Assembly: GCA_002897115.2 (NCBI GenBank)
Contig: BCIH01000001.1
Coordinates: 487,010-551,009, forward strand
DNA from: Prototheca cutis
Lineage: Eukaryota; Chlorophyta; Trebouxiophyceae; Chlorellales; Chlorellaceae
Length of the DNA stretch: 64,000 nucleotides
Direction of reading: 5' to 3'
Numbering within the stretch: the stretch's first letter is position 1; the number at the start of each line of letters is the position of its first letter. Below the pieces are notes generated by a model. The model saw only the letters and a list, made by a program, of their open reading frames with translations. It had not been told where the DNA came from and did no database searches. Positions 17,546-63,758 of the stretch are shown here, piece by piece. The position numbers were made by a program, and so were the translations under genes.

Positions 17546-20500
17546 ATGCCGCCCAAGAAGAAGAATAGAAATTTGGATGACTGGGAGAAGGATTTTGAGG
17601 CGCTGGACGAGCTCGGCAATCTGAAGGAGCCCGAGGAGGCGCCCGTCAAGCAGGGTATGTGTTATGGCCCAGTGTCTTGGGATCCTAGGAGCACAATTTA
17701 CGACTGCGTGGAGCTGCATGCGCGTGCGGAGCGGGCGGTTGCCCTGCGCCGACGTGTGACGCCTCTGGGCCTGATCTGTGACTGCACCCCTGACCACACC
17801 TGCAGCTGCCAAGTCGAAGAAGAAGGACAAAAAGAAGGGAAAGAAGGCAGCTGCATTCAACTCGGATGACGAGGATGTGCCAGCAGGTGTGCGTTGGGGG
17901 GCTGCGCGGGGTGACCTGCGCTTGTGTGTTACGAGCGAAGGCGGTGTGATTGGACACCGGCAACGTGAGACGCTCCCTTCTGGCCCTTCTACACAGTGCT
18001 GGCCGAGCCTGAGGCCGAGCCTCAGAGCGAGGAGGAGGAGGAGGACGCCATGCCCATGACCAAGCCGAGCAAGAGCAAGGGCAAGAAGAAGGCTGCTGCT
18101 GTTGCAGCGGCTTCCTTTGCATTGTTGGCAGAGGACGACGAAGAGGAGGCCGGGGCTGCCAGTGATGAAGAGGACGAGGATGCCGAGGAAGCAGCTCCTG
18201 TTGCCGCCATAGTCCCTGTGGTAGCCAAGATCATCTCGATCAAGCCGCACCCCAAGGCCGACCGCCTCCGCATCGTCAAGCTGGCAGCGGGACCGGTGTT
18301 GGGCGACGTGCAGGTCGTGAGCAATGCCCCGGGACTTGATAAGCACCAGCTCGTAGCCCTTGCTGTGCGTTGTTATCCATGGATTAGTTTATTGTTGTGG
18401 CCTGTTTTCTTGCGTGGGGCATGTATGTGTTGTTATGGGGCAGAGGGAGGGGGGGGACAGCATGGCGCAGCATGCGCACACGGATCGGGTGCTCAGTGCA
18501 ACCACCCCTTGTCTGTACGTTGCCACAATAGAAACACTCATTGTCCCCCCCCCCCCCCCCTCTTCAATGCGATGCAGTCAGTGGGGTGCAAGATGCCCGG
18601 GTCTGGGGTGGACATTGCAGCAGCCAAGGTTCGTGGTGTGGAGAGTAACGGCATGATTTGCTCGGCCTTTGACCTTGGCTGGGTGGCGGAGGCTGACGGT
18701 GAGGCCGCAACCATTCCCAAGGGCATGCTCCCCGGGGACCCCGTGCCCGAAGAAGCCCCAGAGGCTGAGCCGCAGGCTGCGGCCCCTGCTGCCGATGAGG
18801 ACGACGAGGAGGGGCAGCTTGCGGCCAAGCCCAAGTCAAAAAAGAAGGGGAAAAAGGGCAAGGCGCCGACGGATGCGCTGTTTGCGGCGCTGGTGGGTCT
18901 TGATGATGAGGGGGAAGGAGAAGCAGCGGCCGAAGAGGCGAATGGAAAGGAGCGCGCTGCCGAGGAGGAGAAGGATGTCACGAGCGCCTTTGGAGGTGCG
19001 TGGCAGTGTGCGCCTGGTGGAATGGTGGGGATTGGTGAGTTGAATGTGGTGCTGGGAAATGCGGTTCGCCGGTGGAAGCGTCATTTGATGGGGAGCATCG
19101 TCCGTCAGGGATCCAAGTCCAACGGCCCAATGCTTCATCCCCAATGTACCCGCCCGACATCCCTCCGACTGCAACAGCGCTGGCACTTGACGAGGGTGAT
19201 GACCTGCAGCTGGGCAGCAAGAAAAAATCAAAAAAGAAGACGCGGGCACCACTGGATCTCGACGCACTCCTGGCCGGCGAACCGTCCGCCGGGGACGAAG
19301 CTGCGTCCGAGGCCCCCGCCGCTGCCGCTCCCGCCAGCGCGGGCCCTGATAAGAAGAAGAAGAAGAAGAAAGGCAAGGCCGCGGCCGTGGAGGAAGACGA
19401 CGAAGATCTGGATGCGCTACTTGCGGAGCTCGATGCCCCCGCCACCAAGCCCCCGCCGCCGGCAGCTGCTCCTCTTGAAGCGCCCTCGGCCGCCTCCGAG
19501 AAGCGGAAGAAAAAGAAGGGTAAGGCCGCGGCTGGTGGTGATGCCGGCGGTGATGACGACCTGGACGCCATTCTGGCCGAGCTGGGTGGCGGCGAGGGTG
19601 CCAAGGCAGAAGAAACCGCAGCCCCCGCCGCGCCGGCGGCGGCCGAGGCCAACGGTGCTTCGGGCGCTGGCGACGACGAGGAGGCTGGCGAGCAGGTGCT
19701 GAGCGCGGCCGCACTCAAGCGCAAGAAGAAGAGGGAAAAGAAGAAGACTGGCGGCGGCGAGGAGGAGGAGACTGCGGCGGAGGAGGCCGCGGCGCTCAAG
19801 GCCGACAAGAAAGGAAAGAAGGGCGCGCCCAAGGTCTCTGCGGTGGTGCGGCGCATGCAGGAGGCGGTGGAAGCACACCGCCGCGCACAGGAAGAAGCGG
19901 AGCGTGCTGCGGAAGAGGAGCGGCTGCGTGAGGAGGAAGAAGCCCGCAAGGCGGAGGAGGAGCGGCTGGCAAAGGAAGAAGCCGCGGAGCGCAAGAAGGC
20001 CGAGAAGGCGGCTCGTCGTGAGCAGCTGCGTCGCGAGGGCAAGCTTCTTACGGGCAAGGCAAAGGCCGAAGCGGAGCGTCTGCAGCGCATGCGCGAGCAG
20101 TTCCTCAAGCAGGCTGGTCTGGACCCGGGGGCGGAGCTGCCGAAGAAGAAGCCCGTGTACGGCAACCGCAAGAGGCAGCAGCCCAAGAGGGATGCCGCCG
20201 CGACACCAGAGCCCGAGGAGTCTGCCGCCGAGAGCCAGGCCGCGGAAACTGCTGAGCCGTCTGAAACCTCGCCGGAACCCATGGAAACGGAGCAGGAAGT
20301 TGCTGCATCGGCGAAGGAGGTGGCCGTCGCTCCTGCGGAGGAGCCCGTCGTCGAGGAGGAAGTTGCTGCCGCACCCGACAGTTGGGAGGCGGCGGTGGAT
20401 GACTGGGAGGCCATGGACGAGGACTCCGTGGTCCTGCCTGGCGCGGAAGCGAAGACTGCCGCAGGGGAGGAGGAACAAGGAAAGGAGGAGAGGACTGGAG

Positions 20501-23275
20501 CCAAGGCCGCCGCTCGGCCTGCCTCTGCTGCTGCGATGGTCTCCAGTGACCAGGCGGCCTCGGTTGCTGCGGGGGAGTCGGAAGCTGAGGAAGAATCTGA
20601 GGAGGAAGAAGAGGAGGAAGGCTCTTCCTCTGACGAAGAAGAGTCATCGGCCGAGGACGAGTCATCTTCCGAGGAGGAGTCATCTTCCGAGTACAGTTCC
20701 TCCGAGGACGAGAGCACCGACAGCGAGGCGGAGATGGAGACGCGGGTGGAAGCCCAGCGTGCCAAGCGTGCGGCTCGCCGGCGCGCGGCCATGGCACAGC
20801 GCAGCCCCGACGACCTCCGCAGCCCCATCTGCTGCATCCTGGGGCATGTGGATACGGGCAAGACCAAGATCCTGGACAACATTCGGCGGACCAACGTCCA
20901 GGACTCTGAGGCGGGAGGCATCACGCAGCAGATTGGTGCGACCTACATCCCGGGCGATGCCGTGCTGGCCCGCACGGAGGAGCTGCGCAAGGGCAAGAAG
21001 TTTGACCTGCGGCTGCCCGGCCTGCTGGTCATCGACACGCCGGGCCACGAGTCGTTCAGCAACCTTCGCTCGCGGGGGTCAGGCCTGTGCGACATTGCCG
21101 TGCTGGTCGTCGACCTCATGCACGGGCTGGAGCAGCAGACCATCGAGTCCATCAACCTCCTGCGAATGCGCAAGACGCCGTTTGTCATCGCGATGAACAA
21201 GGTGGATCGGCTGTATGGCTGGAAGTCGGTGGCCAACTCGCCGATCATGGATGCGCTGGAGCGCCAGGAGGGCTTTGTCCGCGCCGAATTCGAGCGCCGG
21301 ATAGAGCAGATCCAGCTGCAACTGAACGAGCAGGGCCTGAACGTGGCGCTGTACTGGAAGAACCGGGACCCCAAGTCGTACATCAGCATCGTGCCCACCA
21401 GCGCCCACACCGGCGAGGGCATCCCCGACCTGCTCCAGATCCTGGTCAAGCTCACTCAGAGCGCCATGACCGAGAAACTGATGTTTGTGGATGATCTCCA
21501 GTGCACGGTGCTGGAGGTGAAGAGCATTGAGGGTCTGGGCACGACTGTGGACGTCGTCCTGATCAACGGCAAACTCAAGGAAGGAGACACCATCGTCGTC
21601 TGTGGACTGGGCGGGCCCATCGTCACCCAGATCCGCGCGTTACTCACGCCCCAGCCCCTCAGGGTATGATGCGTGGCGGGGTGCTGGTGTCAGGCATTCT
21701 CATTACCTAGCACACAAACGAACGAGCACTCTCTGACGCACATGTAGGAGATGCGTGTCAAGGGCAGTTACATCCATCACAAGGAGCTCAAGGCGGCGAT
21801 GGGTGTGAAGATTGCGGCACACAACCTCGAGTCTGCGGTGGCCGGCACCCAGGTGGAGGGGGGCCCTNATGGTTGGGGGCACATTGACGCTTTGCTGGTT
21901 TCATCATCACATGCACCACCACCCAACCAAGAGTTCCTTTCTTCCTTTCCTCACCTGGACAGCTGTTTGTGGTTCGGCCCGACGATGATCTCGGGGCTTT
22001 GGAGTCGGAAGTCATGGAGGACATGCAGGACATCTTTGCGTCGGTGGACAAGACGGGGGAGGGTGTGTGTGTCCAGGCTTCGACCCTGGGATCCCTGGAG
22101 GCGCTTCTGGAGTTTTTGAAGACGCCCGAGGTGGCCATCCCGGTGTCGGCCATCAACATCGGTCCCGTACACAAGCGCGACGTCATGCGCGCCAACGTCA
22201 TGATCGAGCGCGGCGTGAAGAAGTACGGCGTCATCCTGGCCTTTGACGTCCCAGGTGAGCAATTGTTTGGTGGTTGGTGGTTTTTGAAGGGAGGGGGGGG
22301 ATTTTTTTTGGCGAACCTGGGGTTTGGGGTTTTTCTCCCCGTCGGACGTGGCACAACACAGCACCACCTTGTCAACGACAGGGGACGTCCCATCATCACC
22401 CCCTAAACACACACGCACTCAAATATCCACCGCCAGCAAACAAAGGCCTTTTTGAATAATCAACCAATGAAACAGTGACCAAGGAGGCCAAGGAGATGGC
22501 AGAGGAGCTTGGCGTCAACATCTTCACGGCCGACATCATCTACCACCTGTTTGACCAGTTCACGGCATACCTGAAACGCGTCAAGGAGGAGGAGCAGGAA
22601 GCTGCGCGGCTGGACGCCGTGTTCCCCTGCGTCCTCCGCATCCTGCCCACCTGCGTGTTTAACAAAAAGGACCCCATCGTCGTGGGCGTGGAAGTCGTCG
22701 AGGGCATCGCCCGCATCGGCACCCCGCTCTGCGTCCCCTCCCAGGTGTGTTCCTGGTGATGAGGTGTGGGCCCCAGTGTGTGCGTGTGTGTACAGCACAG
22801 TGAGGCCAACACACACTGCACCAATCACCTCTCTCAATGATACGACCAATTGCAGGGCGGGATTGACCTTGGACGGATCGCCTCGTTAGAAAAGGACCAC
22901 AAGTCGGTGGACACGGCACGTCGCGGCGATGCAGTGGCCATGAAAATCGAGGTATTTAACTAGGGTTTTTTGAACCTTTTTTGGGAGATGGGAAGGTGTT
23001 CTTGACAAAGGTGGTGCAGTGGATCCGCTGGGGATCAACCGGCTTCTCAACTGCATCTCAACCGCCACCTCTGCCCTTGCGCTGTCCCCCTGCAGGCCAT
23101 CAACCCGGAGCAGGCGGCGCGGCTGTACGGCCGGCACTTTGATCACCGGGACGACCTGGTCTCTCGCATCTCACGCAAGTCGATCGACATTCTCAAGACC
23201 ATGTTCCGGGACGACCTGTCCAAGGACGACTGGCGGCTGGTGGTCCGGCTGAAAAAGGTGTTCAACATCGACTGA
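17546..23275 (+). CDS. EIF5B: Translation initiation factor eIF5B with inserted tRNA-binding OB domain
   Basis: GTPase that joins ribosomal subunits at initiation. Ten exons give about 1467 codons with matching phases: 17546-17654, 17806-17886, 17997-18364, 18578-18995, 19178-21663, 21748-21852, 21963-22254, 22476-22744, 22856-22951 and 23096-23275. The N-terminus ([20 protein letters not shown], then [14 protein letters not shown]) is typical of eIF5B, as are the repeated Lys-rich and [13 protein letters not shown] blocks. Residues about 135-235 instead form a complete PheT/YtpR-like tRNA-binding OB fold: [28 protein letters not shown], then [20 protein letters not shown]. The G domain starts near residue 872, with P-loop GHVDTGKT (about 880), DTPGHE (about 944) and NKVD (about 998). 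Domains II-IV follow with [19 protein letters not shown] and end in RLKKVFNID. The GTPase core looks intact. Confidence 0.96.
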
Positions 23276-23850: not shown

Positions 23851-24189
23851 ATGAACGTTTTCAAAGCGTCCGTGGATGGGGTGCAGGACGATCCCAGCCT
23901 GCAAGTCGTGCAACGCGAGAACAGCAAGCTCAAAGTGACGGACGAGGAGGTGTCGGCCATCGCCGCGCAGCTCAGCCCCGAGGAGGCGTCCCGGTGCGAT
24001 GTCGCGATGATCCGGCGATACATCCGTGCCTGCGCTGGGGATAGCAAACAGGTGAGGGGCCTAGAGCATGAGAATGGACCCTTCAACAGTTGGACCTCTA
24101 TTGTTTGGAAGTGGGGGTGAAGTGGAGGGGGTTAGCGTTGGGTGGTGTTGACCCAGGGCCCTCAACTCCCAATACCCCCCACACCCGCC

Positions 24190-24224
<35 letters not shown>

Positions 24225-25320
24225 ACACACACACACAAACACTACAGGCGGTGCGGCGGCTGCATGAGACGCTGGCCTGGCGCACGGCGGAGCGGCCCGA
24301 TCAGCTGTACTGTCGGGCCTGCGCCCGCGAGCCCAAGTCGCACTACATGCAGGTGGTGGCCTGGGACAAGGGTCACCGGCCGACGATCTATTCCTGCCTG
24401 TCCATCCCCGTGTCACACAGCATGGAGGAGGGTCGTGAGCACATGGTGTCTGTGTTTGAGCAGGCCATCGCCATGATGCCACCCGGCGTGGAGGACTGGG
24501 TCTGGGTGCTGGACATGCACGGCTTTGGGCTTCGAGATGTCGACCCACGCCTGGCATTTGCGTTTTTGAAAATCTCGGCCTCGCACTACCCAGAGCGCCT
24601 GGCCCAAGCCTATGTCGTCTCGGCGCCCCGAATCTTTACGGGATTCTGGGCTACCATCTCACCCTTTATCGACCCGAAAACGAAAGCCAAGGTGGGGGGA
24701 TTTCTTCTGTGCGTTTGAATGTTTTCGAACTTTCTTTTGTTTGTTGGATGCTTTACGGGTGGGAGTGTGGGTGCGAGGTTGGGTACCACAGTGGGAGCCA
24801 ACACTGAACACATGGTGGTGCCCAATGGCTACGCCACAAGCAATGTTCCAAAACGACACAAGCAACCAACACACTACAGATTCACTTTGGCAATTTCCAT
24901 AAAAATGGAAAGAACGACCGGCTACGTTCGGCACTGGCGCTCAACCTCGACGGCCCAACCGTGGAGTGGCTGATGCAGGAAATGGAGGAGAACCGGGTCA
25001 AAACCGTCGCAAGAAGCAAGCAGTACTGCTGCCCAGACCTGGTGGCGTTAGCATCGACGCCGCAGAGCCCCGAAGTCACGGCCGCCTCTGCAAAGCGCAT
25101 GGCGCAGTCGCATTCGGGCCGTCATGATTTTCTCGGGGCCCCTCCGTTCCTTGCCAGCATGGCGGGCAAGCCTGAGCTGCTGGCGCCCTGCATCACCTCG
25201 GTCGCCGCGGCCAACCGGGGCATGCCCACAGGCGGCAGGGCGGCGCTCCCGGCCAACAGGCACCTGCACCGACGCTCGGCAGGGGCTGAACTCCTGGCGG
25301 CCTCGGCCCAAGCAGGCTGA
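23851..25320 (+). CDS. CRAL-TRIO (Sec14-like) lipid-binding protein
   Basis: Cytosolic or membrane-peripheral lipid transfer or sensing protein by family. Three exons, 23851-24051, 24248-24691 and 24880-25320, keep frame and give 361 residues. An N-terminal helical CRAL-TRIO-N segment (ASRCDVAMIRRYIRACAGDS) precedes the lipid-binding domain with VEDWVWVLDMHGFGLRDVDP, then SASHYPERLAQAYVVSAPRI and a loop containing FWATISPFIDPKTKAK. The final part (KQYCCPDLVALASTP onward) is low-complexity and Ala-rich. Intron 1 holds a 33-base poly-C run followed by a CA repeat. The lipid ligand cannot be told from the sequence. Confidence 0.9.
24192..24238. repeat. Poly-C (33) plus (CA)n in an intron
   Basis: C-run 24192-24224 followed by CACACACACACACA, just upstream of the acceptor ACTACAG of the CRAL-TRIO gene. 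The same compound pattern recurs in introns across the window. Confidence 0.95.
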
Positions 25321-36832: not shown

Positions 36833-37076
36833 TGTCGAATATTGTGCAATTCATCATCACAGTGCACTCGCGCCGTGATGTGTGAGGATGGGCTCCTCTT
36901 TGGGTGCGGGCATCCCGTTCACGACGACGTTGCGATATTCCAGCACGCTCCTCCCCCAGGCTATCATGGCGCATGGCATCTTCTCCTCTGTAGAATTTGC
37001 TCATTTAATCTAGCGCGAGAAGACACAGTCGTGTACTGTCCCTCCCTGAGCCCGGCGGGGCTGGTAGCCGTGCGCG

Positions 37077-38207
37077 ATGTCGTCGACGGTGTTGGCCTTG
37101 ACAGACGTCGCGCATGGCGAGGAGACGGGATGGAGGCGGGGCCAGCACCTCATCGATGCACTTCCGTACATAGACGCACTCACGCCGGAGAACAGGGCAG
37201 AGGTGGAGACTCTCATCAAAGAGGAGGTGCGGGGCTGGGTTCCTGGTGGATGGATGGATGAATGGCATCCCAGCTATAGTCCATTGCCTGGCCCACATCG
37301 GGCGCTCTCTCTTCCTCCCTCCTGGTGCAGTTGGCGCGGAGCACAAAATCACCCGCCGACTACCTCTCGGAGATGCCCGAGATGCCTCGCTCCTGGCTGC
37401 AGGTATTGGGTGCTGGACAGTCTGCGTTGCCATATGGCCAGATCACCCCGCATCCCTGCCAGCAGCACATTCATTCCTCCGCTTGTCACCACATTGAGCA
37501 AACGCACATCAATGCAGGAGGGCTCCATTATCGCCCAGGAGCTGGAAAGAGTGGCGCGGGGGGAGGCCATGGCCGAGATGGACACGGCGAGGTACAACCT
37601 GGATCCTCCAGGCTTTTCGCACAAGGATGATCCCGAGGCCTGGGCGACGGCGGTCGACAACGCGCACTCCCAGCTCGAGCACCAATACACAAGGCGTGTG
37701 TGGGGTGGGGTGGAAATTGGATGGAGGCAAGGGCCACTTGGGGAGTGTGTCGAGAGGGCATGTGTTCTTTCTAGCTGGCCTGGCCGGGCGCCGTTGTTGC
37801 CGTCGGATCCGAGTACAGAAATGACCCAGGCAAACGTGCCCCCAAGAGCTCGCTTCACCTGCAATCCCTGCCCACCCGACAGGCTGATCAATCTGGAGCT
37901 GATGATCAAGTTTGGAGGCGATGCCTGGCGGCTACGGAACGATGTCTTGTCCCAACGGGGCACCGACCTCCGCCGCGAGCTGGAGGCGCTGAAGAAGGAG
38001 ACTGAGGACCTGAATCGCGGCAGGAAACTAGCGCAGCAGCAGGCAGGACAGGAACTGGACCAACTGGCGGATGCCTACCACACCCTCCTGCGGAAGAACG
38101 CTGAAATCGAAGCCGCATGCAAGGCGCTGGAAGCAGAGGCCGATGCCCTGCGCGGTGGTGCCCCCGCCACCACTGAGGATGCGGAAATGCAGGAGCCCGC
38201 CAACTGA
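37077..38207 (+). CDS. BCAS2: SPF27/BCAS2 (MOS4) splicing factor of the Prp19/NineTeen complex
   Basis: Core coiled-coil subunit of the Prp19 complex in the spliceosome. Four exons, 37077-37226, 37331-37402, 37518-37693 and 37883-38207, give 240 residues. Family signatures run in order: LIDALPYIDALTPENRAEVE, KSPADYLSEMPEM, RVARGEAMAEMDTARYNLDP with DDPEAWATAVDNAHSQLEHQ, then LINLELMIKFGGDAWRLRND and a long coiled coil (RRELEALKKETEDLNRGRKL). The third intron begins with GC (ACAAG|GCGTGT at 37694); this donor is needed to keep YTR joined to LINLEL. The start at 37077 gives a slightly longer, non-conserved N-terminus. Confidence 0.95.
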   Translation: MSSTVLALTDVAHGEETGWRRGQHLIDALPYIDALTPENRAEVETLIKEEVRGWVPGGWMDEWHPSYSPLPGPHRALSLPPSWCSWRGAQNHPPTTSRRCPRCLAPGCRYWVLDSLRCHMARSPRIPASSTFIPPLVTTLSKRTSMQEGSIIAQELERVARGEAMAEMDTARYNLDPPGFSHKDDPEAWATAVDNAHSQLEHQYTRRVWGGVEIGWRQGPLGECVERACVLSSWPGRAPLLPSDPSTEMTQANVPPRARFTCNPCPPDRLINLELMIKFGGDAWRLRNDVLSQRGTDLRRELEALKKETEDLNRGRKLAQQQAGQELDQLADAYHTLLRKNAEIEAACKALEAEADALRGGAPATTEDAEMQEPAN

Positions 38208-46934: not shown

Positions 46935-49900
46935 ATGGTGACGCGCAAAAGAAAGCGCCCGAGGGAGGAATGGTGCGGGCGCGGGGCCGACTGCGGGTGT
47001 GCGGGTGCACGTCCCGCCTCAGCAGCTGCCGTGGCTGCAACCGCTCGTGCTGCAGGTGGCGGTGGTGAAGGTCCAGGCGCTGGCGGTTCCAACGGTGTCG
47101 GCGGCTCAAGCCCGGGAGGTGGCGGCGGCGCGAGCCCGGGTTCCAATGCTGTCGGCGGCGCGAGCCCGGGCCCGGACAGCGGCCCTGCCGAGGGCGGCCC
47201 GGGCGAGGGCGGCCAGCCAGGGCCCTCGTCGCCGCCCGAGGAGCCCTGCACCCCCCCGACACGGTCGAGGAGGAAAGCGCGGACGGCAAGCACTTCACCA
47301 GCAAGTGTCCGCTGGCGCACCACCTGCTGGCGAAAGTGTGCTCCGCGATCCTGGCTATGCTCAGCTGGAACGTGGAGTTCTGGACGGACCGCATGCGCTT
47401 GGTGTCCGTGGTCACCCTCGAATATGTGCTGCGGAAGCTCGAAGGTGGCGAGGTGCCGGCGCAGCTGACCNNNNNNNNNNNNNNNNNNNNNNNNNNNNNN
47501 NNNNNNNNNNNNNNNNNNNNNNNNNNNNNNNNNNNNNNNNNNNNNNNNNNNNNNNNNNNNNNNNNNNNNNNNNNNNNNNNNNNNNNNNNNNNNNNNNNNN
47601 NNNNNNNNNNNNNNNNNNNNNNNNNNNNNNNNNNNNNNNNNNNNNNNNNNNNNNNNNNNNNNNNNNNNNNCAGCTCTACCAGGCGTACACGAGGCACCTC
47701 AACACGCACAAGCGGTCGTCGGCACTGGGCCTGCCGGCTGCAAGCCTGGAGGCGTGCTGGATGGGCGAAGACGACGCGAAGGACATTGCGGAGCGCACGT
47801 GGAACGACCTCGCGACTGGCATCAGACGCAAAGTTCATGGGACGGACGACCAGGCCCGGCGTCGCGGCCAGCTCATCGCCAGGATCGCTCCCCGGGCGCT
47901 GGAGAACGCACTCGTTCAAGCTGCTGAGAAGTTTGGTCCTGGCTGGGAGGATGTTTTCGCTGACTTGGTTCCCGTCATCCGCCGCTGCGGCGCGGATGTG
48001 CCGTCGCCTGGAACCGTTCAAATGTCGTCTGACACGGATGCCGCCCAGGTGCGTGTGGTCTGCGTGGCCACGTGGCTCTCCAGCTTTTACGAGCTTGTTC
48101 TGCCACTGCGCGCAATATGGCTTTGGCCGATGGGATGCGGTCTTTGTACCGGGCTCAGCGCAGGCCATTCCCGCCCTCAAACAAGCCGTCCCGTCATTGC
48201 CGTCCCGTGCCTGCAGGTCGGCGCCGAGCCAGAAACGCTCCAAATGGTGCCCAAGATGGTTGTGCCTCACGTGCCCCGCACCGAGGTGTGGTGTCGTGGA
48301 GCCCATCAGGCTGTGCTTGGTTTTGCGGGCGTGCCTGTGGTGTGGGCAAGGCGTGATCGATGGGGTCCCCCGGAGGGGGGCATTCGCAGCACAGAAGCGT
48401 GCCCCGCCCTTGGCATTCCAGCGCACGGCGACCCTGCCGCACAGCGTCAGCACGATCGCCATCTCACCCCCGCGCGACTGCTGCTTGACGCCCGTGCACC
48501 CACTGTTCCCACCCGCAGGCCGGCCCTGACCAGGGCGAGGGGGCCGGGCAAGGTGCCCAGCAGGCAACCTCAGCGAGATCTGGCCGGAGGAGGATCGGGG
48601 AGTGGCAGGGGAACGGCCGCCTGCACTGGCCGGCGGGCAAGGTGGAACGGGCCATGCCGCCCGGGCTCGACATGCTGTCGACCCACGATCCGGATGGCGT
48701 GGTGCGCCTGGCATACGAGCTGCTGGCGATCTTCAAGCATTGCGGGGACGCAGGCCGGCCTGTGCAGCTGCCCAAGGCCGACTGGTGCGCGATCATCCGC
48801 CCGATTGTCTTGGCGCTCATGTGGATCAGTACCGAGGCGGACAAGCTGCGCCTCCTGGCCACGGTTTCCAAGTTCATGTGGCAGACGAGGCGGTGGAAGC
48901 AGACGTTCACCGTGCTGCCCATATGCCGCTCGTCGGCGCGGCACATCATCCTGGACGCGAGGTCCCTGTGGCTTCTCTGCCAGCAAGCGGGTATCGAGGT
49001 CGGCACGCGGGATGCCTTTGCGGCGAGGGGAGCGGAAAGCTGGCGTGGACTGTTCAACTTTCCCAGCACGTGGTTCGCGTCGGACCAATGCGGCCGGGCC
49101 CGCATGCGCAAGAGGTTTGTGGGGTATGCTACGACCGACGGCGTGGCACTGAGCTTGGCCTTGGAGCGCGGGGGGAGCGGCAGCGACGGGGAACAAGGCG
49201 GCCGCGTCCCCTGGCATGTCGCCAAGAAGGCCCGGAGGCGGGCCGCCGCGAAGGAGGCCAAGCAGGCCTCGTGGGATGCCAAGCAGGCCGCAAAGAAGGC
49301 CCAGGCAGCCACAAAGAAAGCCAAGCAGAAGGCAGACAGGGAGCATGCGAAGAAGGTGCTGGGCGGCGGCNGCTGCTCGCTGGGCATCGACCCCGGCCGC
49401 AAGGTCATCCTGACCTGCAACTACGGAGAGCAGAAGGGCGACACCGTGTGCATGACTACGAAGGAGTTCCGCCACAATGCGCACTTTAACAAGAACCGCG
49501 ACACCCACCTGAGGCTTCTGCGGGAGAACAAGGACCTGTGGGACGTCGTGGAGAATGTGCCGTGGCTGGCGACCGGCCGCGCGCAGGACGTGCGCGACCA
49601 CATCGACTACATGTTCCAACCGTTTGACGGCGAGTGCACGCGTTTCGATGCCCTGCTCGACGTCACCTGCAGCTACAAATGGAGGAAGGCCGCGTTTGAT
49701 GTGTACATGATGAGGTACATGGCCATGGACAAATCCATCAAGGACGTCATTGCCTGCACAGGGCACCAGCCCAGCAGGCTAGTCGTGTTCATGGGCAATG
49801 CCAGCTTCAGGCAGAACTCACCCGGTCATCCTCCGAGCCTGGGGTGGCGCCGCTGGGCCAAGCGCATGCGGGAGGCGCACGGACTGCTGGTGACAGAGGT

Positions 49901-50387
49901 CGACGAGTTCCGCACGTCGCAGGCGCGCGCTGGGGTGGTGGTGCACGTGTGGGGGTGTTTTGTGGGTGCTGCATGCCGTGATCTAGGCGAGCAGGTGCCT
50001 GGAGAGGTTGGAGCAGGGCAGGCGCATGCATGCACACGTGCACAATGTCGACGGACTGCCGGCCACACCGATCCCAAACGCGCAACACCGCAGATTTGTT
50101 CGGCGTGCGAGACGCATGCGCGCCTGGGTGGATGCAAAACCGCCCGGAACCAGTACGCCATCCTCAAATGCCAGAGTTGTGGCGTGGTGTGGAACCGCGA
50201 CGTCAACGCCGCGGGCAACATCCGCCACCTGGGGGAGGCACTGGTCCTGACCGGCAAAAGACCGCCGCCTTTTGACCGCAATACCAAGCTCATCCCCCTT
50301 GCATGTCCCCTTCCCAGGCGCTCCACCTGGTATGATTTGATCACCAAGATACTCCGCTGGCCCTGGTCAGCGGAACAGCACCATTGA
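46935..50387 (+). CDS. Fanzor: eukaryotic TnpB-like RNA-guided DNA nuclease
   Basis: OMEGA-family nuclease carried by mobile elements. Exons 46935-48048 (with a 200-N gap), 48217-48285, 48519-49922 and 50094-50387. It starts with an NLS-like MVTRKRKRPREE and a Gly/Pro-rich linker. A helical domain follows (HLLAKVCSAILAMLSWNVEF, TLEYVLRKLEGGEVPAQL, ENALVQAAEKFGPGWEDVFA). RuvC-I is CSLGIDPGRKVILTCNYGEQ (near 49375). RuvC-II region is RLVVFMGNASFRQNSPGHPP, then HGLLVTEVDEFRTSQ with the displaced catalytic Glu typical of Fanzors. The zinc ribbon is CSAC...CQSC, and RuvC-III is VVWNRDVNAAGNIRHL. All three acidic motifs are present. The frame breaks once near 47250 in a seven-C run, either a sequencing error or a mutation. 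The last intron (49923-50093) uses a GC donor and is also an open frame of 57 codons. Introns argue against bacterial contamination. Confidence 0.88.
47471..47670. other. Sequencing gap (200 N) in the Fanzor gene
   Basis: Exactly 200 Ns, probably a placeholder of unknown length. It interrupts the N-terminal helical domain. Confidence 0.97.
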
Positions 50388-50716: not shown

Positions 50717-53700
50717 CTACATCCTCTTGAACAGCGCACGGCAGTCTTGGTCCAGGAAACTGCGCAGTTTCTGCGCTGCCAGCTGTCCCCCCATGGCCTC
50801 TGCCAGCTCAGCAAGCGGCATTTGCGCCAGGCCAGCCAGGCTGCCGGCCGCCCGCATCAGAGGCCACAGGCTGGCCTCCGTGACACCTGAGGCGTTGCGA
50901 TTGTGCCAATGAATTTGGGGTTATTGGATGGAGACAGGTGGCAATACCTCATGTGCCTTGTCCATGGAGTCGTAACTCAAAGACCACGACAAAAGTTTGC
51001 AAGACTCCCTGTTCCCTCTGTTCCCTTTCCCCCATGTTCCCGAATCATCCGTACCAGGCAGCCTGCGGAGGAGATCGATGGCAGGCTGGTTGACCAGGCT
51101 TTCTAGCAAACCCGCCGGCTGTGCCAAATCCGGGTTTTCCATGGGCACGCCCACAGTGGCCGCCTCCACCGGGTCGGGCTCNTCCTGGTTGGCCTTGAGC
51201 GCCAGGAAAATCTCTGCGAGATTGCGTCATGGCGCAGTCTGGTTGGAAGCACACCTTCATCCCCGGTGCCGCTTGGACGAAGCTGGGGAAAAGCAGACCT
51301 CGGTAAAAAAATATAGAAAGAGCAACAAATTGAAAATCCCTGATAACAATGAAATACAGAGCTTCTCGACCAACCCCTGAAACCCCAAACAAAAGCACCT
51401 GCTGTGGCGTGGAGGGACCTGCTCCAGATGAGGCGAAGGCGTGGAAAGTGCAGGCACAGCAGGGCGATGCGTGAGGTCAGGGCCTGGAGCCGCAGCTCGT
51501 CTCCCAGTTCCGCGGCGGCTTGCAGCGCAAACGCACGGTCGCCCTCGAACTCGATCAGCAGCACCGGCGTGGTGTAGTGCTTGGACATGGCTTCAGCCTG
51601 GGCATACAACCGCCCCGAAGCCAGTGACGCTCGTAGGTCAGGCAGCGACTTGCGCTCCACCGCCAGTTGGCGCGACAGGATGTAGTCCCCCACTTCGAGC
51701 GTCAACGGCAGCACCTCGCACCCCGCGGCATGCAGCACTGCGGGAAGCTGACTCCCAAACTCCCGCACGTCCACCACCATGCGCCGGGGTCGCGTTGCTG
51801 GGCCGCTGCGTGACAGTGCACCGGGCCGTCCGCCCGCGACCCGGGTGAGGAGGTTGGCCCCGGTGCCGGTGAGTTCCAGTGGCCCGGAGGCTGCTGTGGC
51901 AGTCAGGGACTTGGGTCGGCCCTGACTATCCAACTGCACCATTTCATGGTGGTTTTTGGGGGTTTGATGGTACCATGCTTGCCTGGGACATGAGAAAGGG
52001 ATAGACCCCCAACACATGCACGCACACATGCATGCACTTACCGCGGCCAGGGGATTGCCCGCGGCGCAGGCGACGGTCATGACTTCTTTGGCTTTGATCA
52101 GGGACTCAAAGGCCCTGCGTTCCCGGACGACCATCGCCTGGTACCGGTCCATCTCCGCGCTTTCTTCGTATCGCAGCACGTACACGCGCAGNGGCGGCGC
52201 GTCGGGCGGCGCCGATGCCTGGTACAGTTCCAGCCGTCGGGTCAGGCTGACGTCCGGATCATACATCACCACCGCCCGTGGTCGCAGCTCCTCCAGCCGG
52301 TGCAGGCCCTGCTCTTCGAGCACCAAGAATTCGCACGGCGCAACGCTGCTGCTGGTCGCGGGACGTGGAGCGGAGGGTTCGAGCTCCTGAGAAGTTGCCT
52401 CCGATGCAGCCCCTGGAGCTGCTGAGACAGCCTCGGTGGTCTCGGGGCCGCTCTGATGCAAACTCGACGATGCCAACCTGCGTGCGGCGAGATCTCGGGC
52501 GAGAGCCTCGGGTGCCCTGCTTTCTGGCCGAGAAGCGGCTCTGCTCGTCCGCGCAGGTCGCCGGTGGGCTTCAGGAGCCTCTTCGCCCGCCTGCGCAACG
52601 ACATGCGCTCGCGCCAGGGCTCTGATTGCGCTTTCTTCGTTGGCAGGCAGGCTGCCCATGGCTCTCGCCGCGCCAGACATGCTGCGAGGGAGGGGCTTGC
52701 GCTGGGAAATGATGGTCAAGAGAAGGGTTCCCGGGAACGAGGACGGGAGGGGGGACACTCATGCCCCATGTGCGCAGAGGGCCCCACCCCTTTACATGCA
52801 CCCTTCCTGCAGTACCAGCAGATGTATCACCGACAATCCAGTGGACACACTCTCAACGACATCATCATATCCCCTACAGAAAGAAACGCGGCCCCACCGA
52901 CTAACCTGGGGGCCTGGCGCGGACCGCCCCAGCCAGCGCCGGGTCGGTGCATGGACGGGTCTGCCGTCGGCGCCGCGGCACTGGCGGCCCGGTGGATGAG
53001 GTAATCCCCCCACACCCGCCGCATGTGCTCCTCCGCGCCCAGCCTCAGCACCTCTCGGATCTGTGCAAAGCAATTTTTATTTTTCATTTATTTATTTTTT
53101 TTTGGGGGGGGCATTGTTGCTGTGGCATTGCCATTGCTCTCAAAGGTGTGTGGAAACCAGAGCACGGCAGGGCATCCCCCCCTCGCACACACACCCACAC
53201 AAACGCGCAAAATCCGCTGACCTGGGCGGCGGTGAACGCGTCATTGCATGCGACGACAATGCCATGCCGGGGTCCAAAGGCTTCCCCCGCGTCCAACAGT
53301 TCCTCCCCGATTTCTTCCAGAATGTCCTGGAGCAGGCCCCACTTTGGCAGCGGCTCAAGCACGGGGTCGATGCGGATGGCGCCCGTGCCCGAGGTGCCGG
53401 CTGCTGCACTGGCGGACTCGGCCTGCCTTCGCTTGGTGGGGACAAGACCCCGGTGCGCCTCGTAGACCCGGGCCTTGGCAGCCTCGAAGATCGTGTGCGC
53501 CGCTGCAGGTCTTGGTTGGTTGATGGGCTCGTGGGGTTGCGGATGGGGGTGTGTGACAGAGCGCGAGAAAAAGGGAGGGAGGGTGTTATCCTCGGGGAGG
53601 CTCCACACATATCATGAAATAACCCCAGGACCTACATCTACCTGCCCCGGGCACAAACCGCACCGGAGTGGAACAGCCAGACCGAGTTTGCGCCTTCGGT

Positions 53701-56064: not shown

Positions 56065-57820
56065 ATGGTGTGGAGAGGAAGGTCCTTGCTGCGTCCTCTG
56101 CGACAGGGATGGGAGGTGGTGGCCAGGGATCGCTGGCCTGCCGCGGGTGTGTCTGGTGCTGCCACGGCAGCCTTGGAGCCGCGAGTGCCACCCTCCCTGT
56201 CGGACAGCGCGTGGTCGGTCCAGCCCGCCTGTGAAGTCCGGGACGTTCATGTTCTGTCGACCAGGCCCGTGGAGCAGCTCGCAGACAGCAATGCCGGCTC
56301 TGCGCTTGCCCATCGGTGGTCTATCCACAACCCTTGCTCCGGCGCCTGGCGAGCGGCCGTGCGGCCCTACAGCAGTGTTCCTGTGGGCAGCCACGTGCCT
56401 GTCCGGGCTCCCCCGACGACACCCAAGGAGGAAATCACCCCACCGGATGAGGGGGGCAAGCGCACAGAGACCCCGGAGCCAGCAGCACAGCGGAGTTGGG
56501 TGGACGCCATGCCCAGGGTTGTCCAGCCCTACCTTCATCTGATCCGCTTAGACAAACCAATAGGTGGGGTTTGGGGTGGTGGTAGTATATCGGTGCTCAT
56601 CGCTAGGGTTGTGTGCATTGACGTGGTCCAGCCCCCCTGGAAATAGGACGACTCACACATAGCCATCCATGTTTTTTCCACCATTCCAGGGACCTGGCTG
56701 CTGGCTTGGCCGTGCTTCTGGTCCATCGCACTGGCCGCGCCAGCAGGCACGCTGCCCGATGCACAGCTCATGGCGCTGTTTGGGACGGGCGCGGTTCTAC
56801 TCCGGGGCGCTGGGTGTACCATTAACGACTTGTGGGACCAGGACTTGGACCGGCATGTTGCACGGACCGCGGGCCGGCCACTGGCTGCGAGGCTCATCAC
56901 TCCGACCCAGGCCATCGTGTTCCTGGGGGCCCAGCTGTCCGCGGGTCTAGCCATCTTGCTCCAGCTCAACACCTACAGTCAGATCCTGGGAGCCTCATCC
57001 ATGGGACTGGTGGTGGTGTATCCATTGATGAAACGCTTGTTTGGATGGCCCCAGGTAAAGCGCTCTGGTGGAGGGGTAGACTTTGCAGAGGAGGAGGGGT
57101 GGTCGGGGAGGAGGGCCCCTCCACCTTGGGCCGGCATGCAGCTCCAAGCATCCCGGCAAGCTGGCCCAGGTACAGCGAGCAACGCACCCCCCCCCCCCCC
57201 CCCGCGCAGCTTGTGCTGGGTCTGGCATTCAACTGGGGGGCGCTGCTGGGATGGTCCGCGGCGGCCGGGTCCTGTGACTGGAGCGTGGCGCTGCCGCTGT
57301 ATGGGGCCGGCGTCCTTTGGACCCTGGTGTACGATACGATCTATGCACACCAGGTTTGTGGGCCCAGAACCGGGCGTCGCGTTACATATGCGAGGACTTG
57401 GCCGGCGTAACGCGGTCTGCCGGACACGAATTGGCGATGGCGGGGTATACCCAGGGCCCCCCTGTTCCTACAGTACAACACTGACCAACACCATCCCTGC
57501 ATGTGACGCAGGACCGGGAGGACGATGCCAAGGTGGGCATCAAATCCACGGCTTTGACGTTTGGGAGTGCCAGCAGATCCATAATGTCCGTCTTTGCCGC
57601 TGGAACAGTGGGAATGCTGGGCCTGACGGGGGTCATGGCGGACTGCGGGCCGGCCTACTACGCCGGCGTGGCGGCGGCGGGGGCCCAGATCGCCTGGCAG
57701 CTTGCAACGGTAGATCTGGACAGCCGGANCGATGCGGGCGCAAAATTCAACAGTAATAAATGGTTTGGTGCAGCTGTGTTTGCTGGAGTCATGGGCGACA
57801 AGCTGCTCGCCTGCATCTAG
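56065..57820 (+). CDS. COQ2: 4-hydroxybenzoate polyprenyltransferase, COQ2-like (tandem copy 1)
   Basis: UbiA-type integral membrane enzyme that attaches the polyprenyl chain to 4-hydroxybenzoate in ubiquinone synthesis. Four exons, 56065-56563, 56690-57054, 57210-57353 and 57512-57820, give 438 residues. The leader [14 protein letters not shown] is Arg-rich like a mitochondrial presequence and is followed by about 130 non-conserved residues. The domain opens with [20 protein letters not shown]. The first aspartate motif is [20 protein letters not shown] (near residue 211) and the second is [13 protein letters not shown]. Further segments are [15 protein letters not shown] and FNWGALLGW. It ends [20 protein letters not shown] lies at 57908. 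One N at 57729. Confidence 0.95.
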
Positions 57821-61378: not shown

Positions 61379-63758
61379 TCACATGCCGAGCATGCCATTG
61401 AGCATTGAAGCGGCATACTTCATGGGTCGGACATCCGGGTGTGGCGCAGCTTCAAACTGCGTGAAGCGCGGGGTCATGTCGCCGCCCTCAAACCGAATGA
61501 ACGCGCCCTTGTTGCCCATCTGGTCGCAGTAGTTGGGCGCAGAGAAGATGGTGACGCAGTAGCCGTCATGCGTGACCTCGTACCCCTCGTCCTTCACCTC
61601 GTGGCTGCGCACCAGGAGACTGAGACCATTGTCCTCCAGGAAGGCCCGTGTGACGTCGGGACCAAATGCCACCCCGACGCCGCGCTTGTTGGGTTCGCGG
61701 CCCGGTGCATCCTGCGGGTCGCTCCACAGCATCTCGCACATCAGCCCGCTCTCCGGCGGCTCCCGTGCACGGTCGATGGCCTCCAGGTCCTCCAGCTTGA
61801 CGCCGTCCTGGGAGAACAGCCCGCCGTGCAGGACCAGCACGCGCGACCCCAGCACGATGCCCAGCGGCAGCCAGCAAAACGTCTCGCGAAAGACGTCCAC
61901 GGCCAGACGCCCCGCCTTGTCCGTCACCTCGCCGTAAAACCCATAAATCAGGTTCATGCTCTTGGCCTCGTGGTTGCCGCGGGTCAGGTGCATGGCGCTG
62001 GGGCACAGGGTCTTGTGCGCCAGCAGCGTCAGCAGCACCTCGAGGCTCCATGACCCCCGATCCACAAAATCGCCGTTGAAAACATAGGGGTTGTCCGCAC
62101 TCGGCGCGCCGTTGAGCTCAAAGATGCGCAGCAAGTCAAAAAACTGGCCGTGCGTGTCGCCGCACACCGTGATGTGGGAGCCGGGCGGGACATCCAGCCG
62201 CACCAGCGAAGGCAACGCCTTGAACAGCCGCTGTGCCTCCAGCGCAATCTGCATGTTTGCATGTGCGGTGGATTCGTGCGAGCACACACGTTTCCCACCG
62301 GTATTGCTGCCCAGGCATCGCGGGTTCCCGTCGGTGCCACAGAAAACATGCACGAGGGGCGTGGGAATCCCAGCGCAAACCCCACCACAACGAAAACCAA
62401 CCCACGCCATCCCATGCTCACCCAGAGCACGTAGCGGCGGTGGAGGGCTTTGCCAGCCTTGAACGCCGCAATCATCTCCTGGATAAACTCTTCAGTCATG
62501 TAGTACTCGCCGTCCGCGTTGGCTGCGGAGGGTCTCAAATTGCGGAGTGTCAGCGAACAGCATGAGCAAGAGGAGGCGGCACCAACATCCTGGGTTGTGG
62601 CAACGACGATGCAGAGCAGGCCCCGGATGGAAAACCCTGACACACGACCCCATCTGAAATGCCCTCCCTCTCAAGAAACCATGCCCAGAAAACAATCGCA
62701 CTTGGAAGAGCAGGGCCGTCGTAGCTGCTGCTGATGGCGATGTCAGACAGGACGATGCTGTCAGACACGGCCTTGTCATCCTCGGGCGATCGCAGCGCCT
62801 CCGCAAACCGCATGTGCTTCAGCTGCTTCTCTGCCTCAGCCAGCTGTCGCCANGTTTGCAGAGGGCAGCGTTTAGTGTGTGTGGTGTGTATGCAGGGGAG
62901 TGTTGATGTTTGGGGGACCCACACAGTCCGTGCCGTCCCCATCCAAGGCAAAATCCCCCCCCCCCCCCCCAAACACGCACATGATCCCAAGAACCCACCT
63001 TGCGTCTGAGGTCGGGATCCCGAGGCACCAGCTTGGCTGCGATTCTAAAGTCACGCACCGCATCCTTGAAATGTGCAAGCGCAAAAGCGGCGTCACCACG
63101 GCGGTAGTACGCCTGCGCCGGACCAAGAAAATAGAGTGTCAGTGACGACGTGAGCAAATCCTCCACGGTGCATCCCCGTCATAAAATGCCCCAGGTGCGC
63201 ATCGGGTAGCCGGTCCACATGCATTCAGACCACGGACATGTGCGGGGGGGAAGCACGCGTCTCTTTCATGAATGCCCCCGCCTCGGGGAGGGACAGACCA
63301 CCAAAGGCAGCACATGGCGCGCCATGACACCAAGATTCACATCATGTCCTCCACCAAACCCCCTACCTTGGCATATTTGGGGTCCAGTTCGATGGCTTTG
63401 GTGGCGTCCACGGCAGCGGAGCCGTACTCCTCCAGCCGCAGGTGGGCAAAGGACCGGTTGGAGTGGTAGACGGCGTTGCTGGGGTCCAGCTCGATGGCCT
63501 TGCTGTACTCGTCGACGGCTTCGTGGTAGTGCTTGGCTGCAANATGCATGCACAGTTGTGGGTATACATGAGGTGTGGAATGCAATTCGACATCGAAACA
63601 TGCCCCAAGGACACCTCAAGTCACAGAGCCCCTCCACGACCGCGATGCGGCCAGTCGGTCTCGCCTTTGAAAGCGGCGTTGGCCCGCTCCTTGTGCCCCT
63701 CTGCTACCGCCTTTGTCTCATCGGAAACCTCCCGGTCATGGAGGGACACCTCCACCAT
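61379..63758 (-). CDS. PPP5C: Serine/threonine protein phosphatase 5 (TPR-PPP)
   Basis: TPR-tethered PPP-family phosphatase that acts with Hsp90. Six exons, 63665-63758, 63367-63536, 62999-63112, 62702-62843, 62422-62522 and 61379-62248, give 496 residues, close to the usual 499. Three TPRs: ERANAAFKAKHYHEAVDEYS, AVYHSNRSFAHLRLEEYGSA and AYYRRGDAAFALAHFKDAVR. A linker (YYMTEEFIQEMIAAFKAGKA) leads to the catalytic domain. Metal-site motifs GDTHGQ, GDFVDRG and RGNHE are intact, as are HGGLFSQDGV, LVRSHEVKDEGYEV and FSAPNYCDQMGNKGAFIRF. It ends SMLNGMLGM. The first intron has a GC donor (AAAG|GCGAGA at 63664), needed to join AAFK to AKHYHEAV. The start at 63758 is the Met nearest the TPRs; a longer frame exists upstream. 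Confidence 0.97.

Follow-up and report, generated by a model that had tools for sequence, protein, structure and literature searches.

The 64,000-nucleotide stretch of Prototheca cutis contig BCIH01000001.1 between positions 487,010 and 551,009 (hereafter the window, numbered from its first letter) contains a gene for eIF5B, the essential factor that joins the ribosomal subunits at the start of protein synthesis. As far as can be told from its sequence, its product is a cytosolic eIF5B in whose N-terminal half a tRNA_bind OB domain of the bacterial PheT/YtpR type is embedded. The gene is made up as follows.

17546..23275, + strand: eIF5B gene from ATG to stop, 10 exons, 1467 residues (splice-phase model and Pfam)
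17546..17886, + strand: exons 1 (17546-17654) and 2 (17806-17886), Lys/Glu-rich N-terminus (splice-phase model)
17997-18364, + strand: exon 3 (splice-phase model)
18218..18364, + strand: first half of the OB (tRNA_bind), residues 138-186, at the end of exon 3 (splice model and Pfam)
18365..18577, + strand: intron 3, phase 0, 213 nt, GT-AG, inside the OB (splice model)
18578..18739, + strand: second half of the OB, residues 187-240, at the start of exon 4, bearing a conserved 17-residue motif (splice model, Pfam and alignment)
18740..18995, + strand: remainder of exon 4 (18578-18995), acidic/Lys-rich linker (splice model)
19178..21663, + strand: exon 5, Lys/Glu-rich linker with 13-residue repeats, G domain and start of domain II, to residue 1154 (splice model and Pfam)
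21748..23275, + strand: exons 6-10 (21748-21852, 21963-22254, 22476-22744, 22856-22951 and 23096-23275), end of domain II, IF-2 domain III and domain IV (splice model and Pfam)

The splice junctions were picked by eye on the genomic sequence, by GT-AG boundaries and frame, and then checked. All nine introns are GT-AG, and a single frame starting with MPPKKK crosses the OB and the G domain and ends at the stop codon. An original prediction made from the letters of this DNA had claimed one frame as far as the G domain; the junctions it gave at 17886/17997 and 18995/19178 are correct. It had, however, treated 17997-18730 as one uninterrupted stretch and did not mention the intron inside the OB. 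The proposed tRNA_bind domain was found by Pfam (PF01588) at residues 138-240 with an E-value of 1.5e-11 and 44.7 bits against a cut-off of 27, covering positions 2-95 of the 96 in the profile. The same chain carries a G domain (GTP_EFTU, residues 875-1086, 110.2 bits), domain II (GTP_EFTU_D2, 1113-1187, 42.2 bits), IF-2 domain III (1204-1315, 74.5 bits) and domain IV (GTP_EFTU_D4, 1337-1409, 54.6 bits), in the order of eIF5B and each above its Pfam cut-off. What we take to be the GTPase motifs are intact in the translation. The OB sits about 640 residues upstream of the G domain on a charged, low-complexity linker.

The halves of the OB on both sides of intron 3 join into a domain that can be aligned with its relatives over the full length. 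A six-frame search of the 19.9 Mb, 23-contig assembly with PF01588 did not return the window OB, presumably because the intron divides it. Intron 3 is divisible by three in length and contains no stop in frame, so that its retention would insert 71 residues into the OB and keep the frame. This was dismissed as a noteworthy feature, since 866 of 5000 first-order resamples of the intron's own sequence were equally free of stops. The six-frame search found tRNA_bind OBs at three other places in the genome, which by motif look like the EMAPII/Arc1p type. Matches to the IF-2 family also occur at three places: one is the window gene, matched in two exons, and the others are bacterial-type genes that contain MGHVDHGKTT and that we take to be organellar; the window gene is the only eIF5B found in the genome.

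The distribution of the OB was followed in three protein searches. One used residues 130-330 (the OB and the following linker) and scored the 8000 candidates sharing most words, giving 34 matches that included 8 eIF5B proteins with PF01588. Another used the eIF5B core and took the best 120 of 5609 matches from 8000 candidates. The last used the OB region of a dinoflagellate-type eIF5B (P0034) and gave 34 matches: 22 dinoflagellate-type eIF5B proteins (P0034 included; Polarella, Durusdinium and Cladocopium are among those named), nine green eIF5B proteins, one from a presumed Mesotaenium (judged by its Mesen1 label), one Prorocentrum ABC protein and one PheT. At an E-value of 1e-4 the OB is present in 61 of 144 eIF5B rows, the window included, and no further row matches even at E 10. 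A quick core tree built on 53 of the 144 rows pairs the window eIF5B core with the Auxenochlorella one as its sister (SH-aLRT 99), within the chlorophyte clade (96). The clade census, with rows placed by a core tree, covers 142 rows, P0136 and P0163 being left out because the searched G motif is not present in them. The OB occurs in 36 of 45 chlorophyte-clade rows, in 3 of 75 streptophyte-clade rows and not in the single fungal row. The dinoflagellate count, 21 of 21, is biased in that these rows were found by OB queries, as was the presumed Mesotaenium.

In eight of the nine chlorophyte-clade rows without the OB, the part ahead of the G motif is only 222-541 residues long and too short to reach the OB's place, which begins 574-1023 residues before that motif in the other rows of the clade. 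The sole informative absence there is Bryopsis (1042 residues), which rests on a gene model. Among the streptophyte-clade rows the OB is carried by Closterium, the presumed Mesotaenium and a third row, P0061, that the core tree places with Closterium (97); no named land plant with an OB was found among the 75 rows. At least 500 residues precede the G motif in 71 of the 72 streptophyte rows that lack the OB (median 791 for all 72), while in the three that have it the OB starts 777-1085 residues before the motif, so that N-terminal length by itself is no proof in the individual case. What proves the absence in land plants is that many of their genomes agree. A presumed Spirogloea row (P0112) also lacks the OB. 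One match, in Elliptochloris (P0046), is short (residues 118-186), is alone in lacking the motif Ser and looks like a mis-spliced gene model. Judged from these rows, the OB is the usual architecture among chlorophyte-clade eIF5B proteins and is also found in zygnematophyte and dinoflagellate ones.

The fusion had been put forward as one not known to be described. In the open-access literature searched, represented mostly by titles and abstracts, no description of an OB in eIF5B was found, and the passages seen of PMC4342817, PMC3359775, PMC6027434, PMC6208778 and PMC11746136 make no mention of one. It is not peculiar to this gene, however, as the chlorophyte, zygnematophyte and dinoflagellate rows demonstrate. 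Database rows already show PF01588 beside the eIF5B domains in their Pfam columns; the architecture is recorded there but apparently undescribed.

The OB itself resembles bacterial relatives most closely. Scored alone, the window OB reaches 71.3 bits against PheT (TIGR00472, cut-off 402.65) and 66.1 bits against YtpR (NF045760, cut-off 100). Both scores come from the OB stretch and fall short of family membership, and apart from the OB, Pfam marked no PheT domain in this protein. Sixteen eIF5B OBs, all of which match PF01588, were made into a profile that, compared with solved structures, matched PheRS beta chains at 6e-30 and below and 3bu2, a putative tRNA-binding protein, at 5e-28, against about 1e-5 for EMAPII and 0.011 for Trbp111. 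Because PheT and YtpR gave the top scores and the profile matched PheRS beta, we class the eIF5B OB as bacterial and of the PheT/YtpR kind; this profile match, with all eIF5B domains in the one chain, agrees with the fusion as originally proposed. It has features of its own: the Trp after the SxGMxCS motif (GW motif) is present in 59 of 61 eIF5B OBs and in none of 27 PheT OBs, and the Asn of VVTNA in 45 of 61 and again none of 27. A scan of bacterial genomes gave three loci, and searches for YtpR there returned frames of PheT and MetRS length, whose loci were left aside. For this reason YtpR was not placed in the OB tree.

The OB tree comprised 80 rows and 113 columns, with PheT and Trbp111 as the only references and many unresolved forks. 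Truncated or doubtful eIF5B OBs (P0046, P0055, P0057 and P0059), near-duplicate or redundant ones (P0086, P0089, P0090, P0161, P0163 and P0166) and two host EMAPII-like OBs were left out. This tree unites 51 eIF5B OBs with a single Prorocentrum OB against PheT (support 96/97). The Prorocentrum protein (P0168) carries ABC-transporter domains together with its OB and reflects either a further fusion or genes merged by the model; a clade of the 51 without it is not rejected (p-AU 0.205). The single OB group and the eIF5B-specific Trp favor a single origin, which is probable for this old and conserved architecture. Two features of the tree speak against a simple history. The chlorophyte OBs do not form one group, since P0098, P0099, P0100 and P0130 join the zygnematophyte OBs (99/96), and the dinoflagellate group lies beside the other 24 chlorophyte OBs, inside the green OBs (93/86, a node not starred in the tree). 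The core tree, by contrast, keeps chlorophytes (96), streptophytes (99) and dinoflagellates (100) apart from one another. With one fungal row as outgroup it does not choose between placing the dinoflagellates as sister to chlorophytes, as sister to streptophytes or outside both (p-AU 0.466 and 0.429; support for chlorophytes plus streptophytes 66.8). Common descent and transfer between green algae and dinoflagellates are thus not distinguishable here, with the OB tree leaning toward transfer.

Selection on the domain was assessed by comparison with its flanks. The shuffle-corrected alignment score per residue of the OB was above that of both flanks in all eight pairs (OB 1.40-3.50) and below that of the GTPase core (2.67-4.60). 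Plain identity separates the OB poorly from the linker (52% versus 55% in Parachlorella, 45% versus 44% in Volvox) because the linkers are low in complexity, whereas the corrected score does separate them. Four motif residues (Gly, Ser, Gly and Met) are each retained by 60 or all of the 61 eIF5B OBs. The pocket that binds the tRNA 3' end in Trbp111 (K33, K73, R75, F78, S82 and M85) corresponds to R, A, A, R, S and M in the window OB. Across the 61 OBs, the equivalents of S82 and M85 are each kept in 60 and that of K33 is Lys or Arg in 50.

The OB-bearing eIF5B is, on these comparisons, a real, conserved and old protein built of known parts, for which we infer the following function. We give a probability of roughly 50% to the OB being a tethered module for capturing the 3' CCA ends of tRNA, one that would supply domain IV with tRNA or check it beforehand, tRNA binding itself being presumed. 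In the Trbp111 co-crystal, as given in passages of PMC11286949, an OB of this type takes the free 3' CA of tRNA through residues of the L12 and L45 loops, binding only the 3'-terminal CA and rejecting internal CA; domain IV of eIF5B contacts the methionylated CCA end of the initiator tRNA (PMC4236685, in part). Taken together, these make the capture and hand-off, or the removal, of tRNA 3' ends a likely role. The OB would take the free 3' CA end as solved for Trbp111 and raise the local tRNA supply at the initiating ribosome. It might then hand Met-tRNAi to domain IV or keep deacylated tRNA out of the way. One 3' end could not be held by the OB and domain IV simultaneously, so that hand-off or competition between them would be expected. 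That the OB may hold initiator tRNA or rRNA, as first suggested, is plausible.

Several points weigh against the capture of 3' ends. The equivalent of R75, the residue with the largest effect in Trbp111 (passages of PMC11286949), is Ala in the window and Arg in only 5 of 61 OBs; that of K73 is likewise Ala, and Lys in 12 of 61. At the site of Arc1p R274 (Trbp111 F78), 38 of 39 green OBs have Arg or Lys, but 21 of 22 dinoflagellate-type ones have Gly. The equivalents of S82 and M85 are just as fixed in PheT OBs (27 of 27 and 26 of 27) and may be kept for folding. Measured by z-score, some pairs have the longer linker level with the OB or above it (55 versus 54 in Auxenochlorella). Trbp111 works as a dimer with an affinity of about 3 uM (PMC11286949, in part), and dimerisation of the eIF5B OB is a supposition. 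Land plants and Bryopsis manage without the domain.

Another explanation is that the OB is a protein-docking or localisation module for synthetase assemblies or some other partner, with RNA binding lost or secondary; the equivalents of R75 and K73 are mostly not retained. The conserved eIF5B-specific Trp would be a new feature suited to such a role, and the OB-bearing Arc1p and AIMP1 belong to synthetase complexes (passages of PMC11286949). However, no partner is known, and S82 and M85 of the 3'-end pocket are kept almost throughout, though perhaps for folding; we consider docking possible but on the whole unlikely. The long Lys-rich stretches that flank the OB would suit binding to rRNA or mRNA, by which the OB would do no more than help the N-terminal half to stay on the ribosome, and OB folds bind many nucleic acids (PMC11286949, in part). 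This is doubtful, since the family is tRNA_bind and its solved member accepts the terminal but not the internal CA. A trans-editing module, deacylating wrongly charged tRNA at the start site, has precedents in the OB of Trypanosoma brucei MCP1, which deacylates Ala-tRNA, and in yeast Arc1p with the same activity (passages of PMC12021450). R205 and S209 of the window correspond to R331 and S335 of this deacylase type, but the three residues K326, R331 and S335 are A, R and S, the Lys being found in 12 of 61 OBs, and the window OB does not qualify as a member of that deacylase class. Deacylation of the MCP1/Arc1p type is highly unlikely because the required Lys is not present.

It is also conceivable that the OB is a neutral relic, a tolerated passenger with no present role, as its absence from land plants, Bryopsis and the presumed Spirogloea might suggest. 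Its retention in every chlorophyte-clade row long enough to reach it except Bryopsis, its score per residue above the flanks and its nearly invariant motif residues make this very improbable. Finally, the OB and eIF5B might be neighbouring genes or separate mRNAs joined by the gene model, which for the window was built on genomic DNA. This is barely credible. In 59 other proteins the OB likewise lies ahead of the G motif, and P0163 adds a further case of the OB, although the searched G motif is missing from it. Transcriptome labels (mmetsp, CAMPEP or TRINITY) mark the OB-bearing rows P0034, P0053, P0149, P0151, P0156, P0157, P0158 and P0164, which speaks against an artefact of genomic modelling in those species. 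A two-gene fusion created by the model was rejected, since the splice phases are continuous and 60 other eIF5B rows carry the OB.

A conserved tRNA_bind domain in this factor throughout whole algal lineages suggests that some eukaryotes handle tRNA in an additional step at initiation. A wider proposal, which is tentative and rather unlikely to hold as a whole, would place two tRNA 3'-end sites in one initiation factor, with the OB capturing or checking the initiator CCA and passing it to domain IV. The OB would have been present in the green-plant ancestor and would have disappeared on the line to land plants, while dinoflagellates would have it through common descent or an early transfer; it would serve a lineage-specific 60S-joining step unknown from yeast and animals. 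The series of gain and loss, in which chlorophytes keep the OB and land plants are without it, may be used to probe the purpose of the N-terminal half of eIF5B.

Elsewhere in the window, Pfam marked the following frames.

24152-24718: CRAL_TRIO frame
37068-38204: BCAS2 frame
51106-52758: ERCC4 frame
56647-57753: UbiA frame
61382-62491: Metallophos frame

In addition, a 632-residue stop-to-stop frame at 48489-50384 (+ strand) contains a Cas12f1-like TNB domain (PF07282, E 3.6e-9) and may encode an algal nuclease of the Fanzor/TnpB type; a gap of 200 N at 47471-47670 lies just upstream of it. The chlorophyll a/b-binding family had no match in the 19.9 Mb genome, as expected for a colourless alga. 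Taken with the Auxenochlorella sister of the eIF5B core, this suggests a host that is a non-photosynthetic trebouxiophyte of the Prototheca kind.

Compared with known systems, the window protein shares with eIF5B, a GTPase of the IF2 family, the G domain, domains II, III and IV and the long charged N-terminal extension. It differs from the eIF5B of the land-plant rows and the one fungal row in carrying the tRNA_bind OB; to our knowledge, yeast and human eIF5B are also without it. The closest sequence match of the OB is to the N-terminal OB of bacterial PheRS beta (PheT) and to YtpR, with which the OB alone is in common and from which the eIF5B OB is set apart by its own Trp and Asn. Trbp111, Arc1p, EMAPII and the C-terminal OB of MetRS are related but more distant; the eIF5B OB keeps the Ser and the Met with which their pocket holds the 3' CA, and the equivalents of R75 and K73 of Trbp111 are not present in the window OB. 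Fusion of an OB to synthetases raises the local tRNA concentration (passages of PMC11286949). The eIF5B described here likewise has an OB on a tRNA-handling protein, but its partner is an initiation GTPase and not a synthetase.
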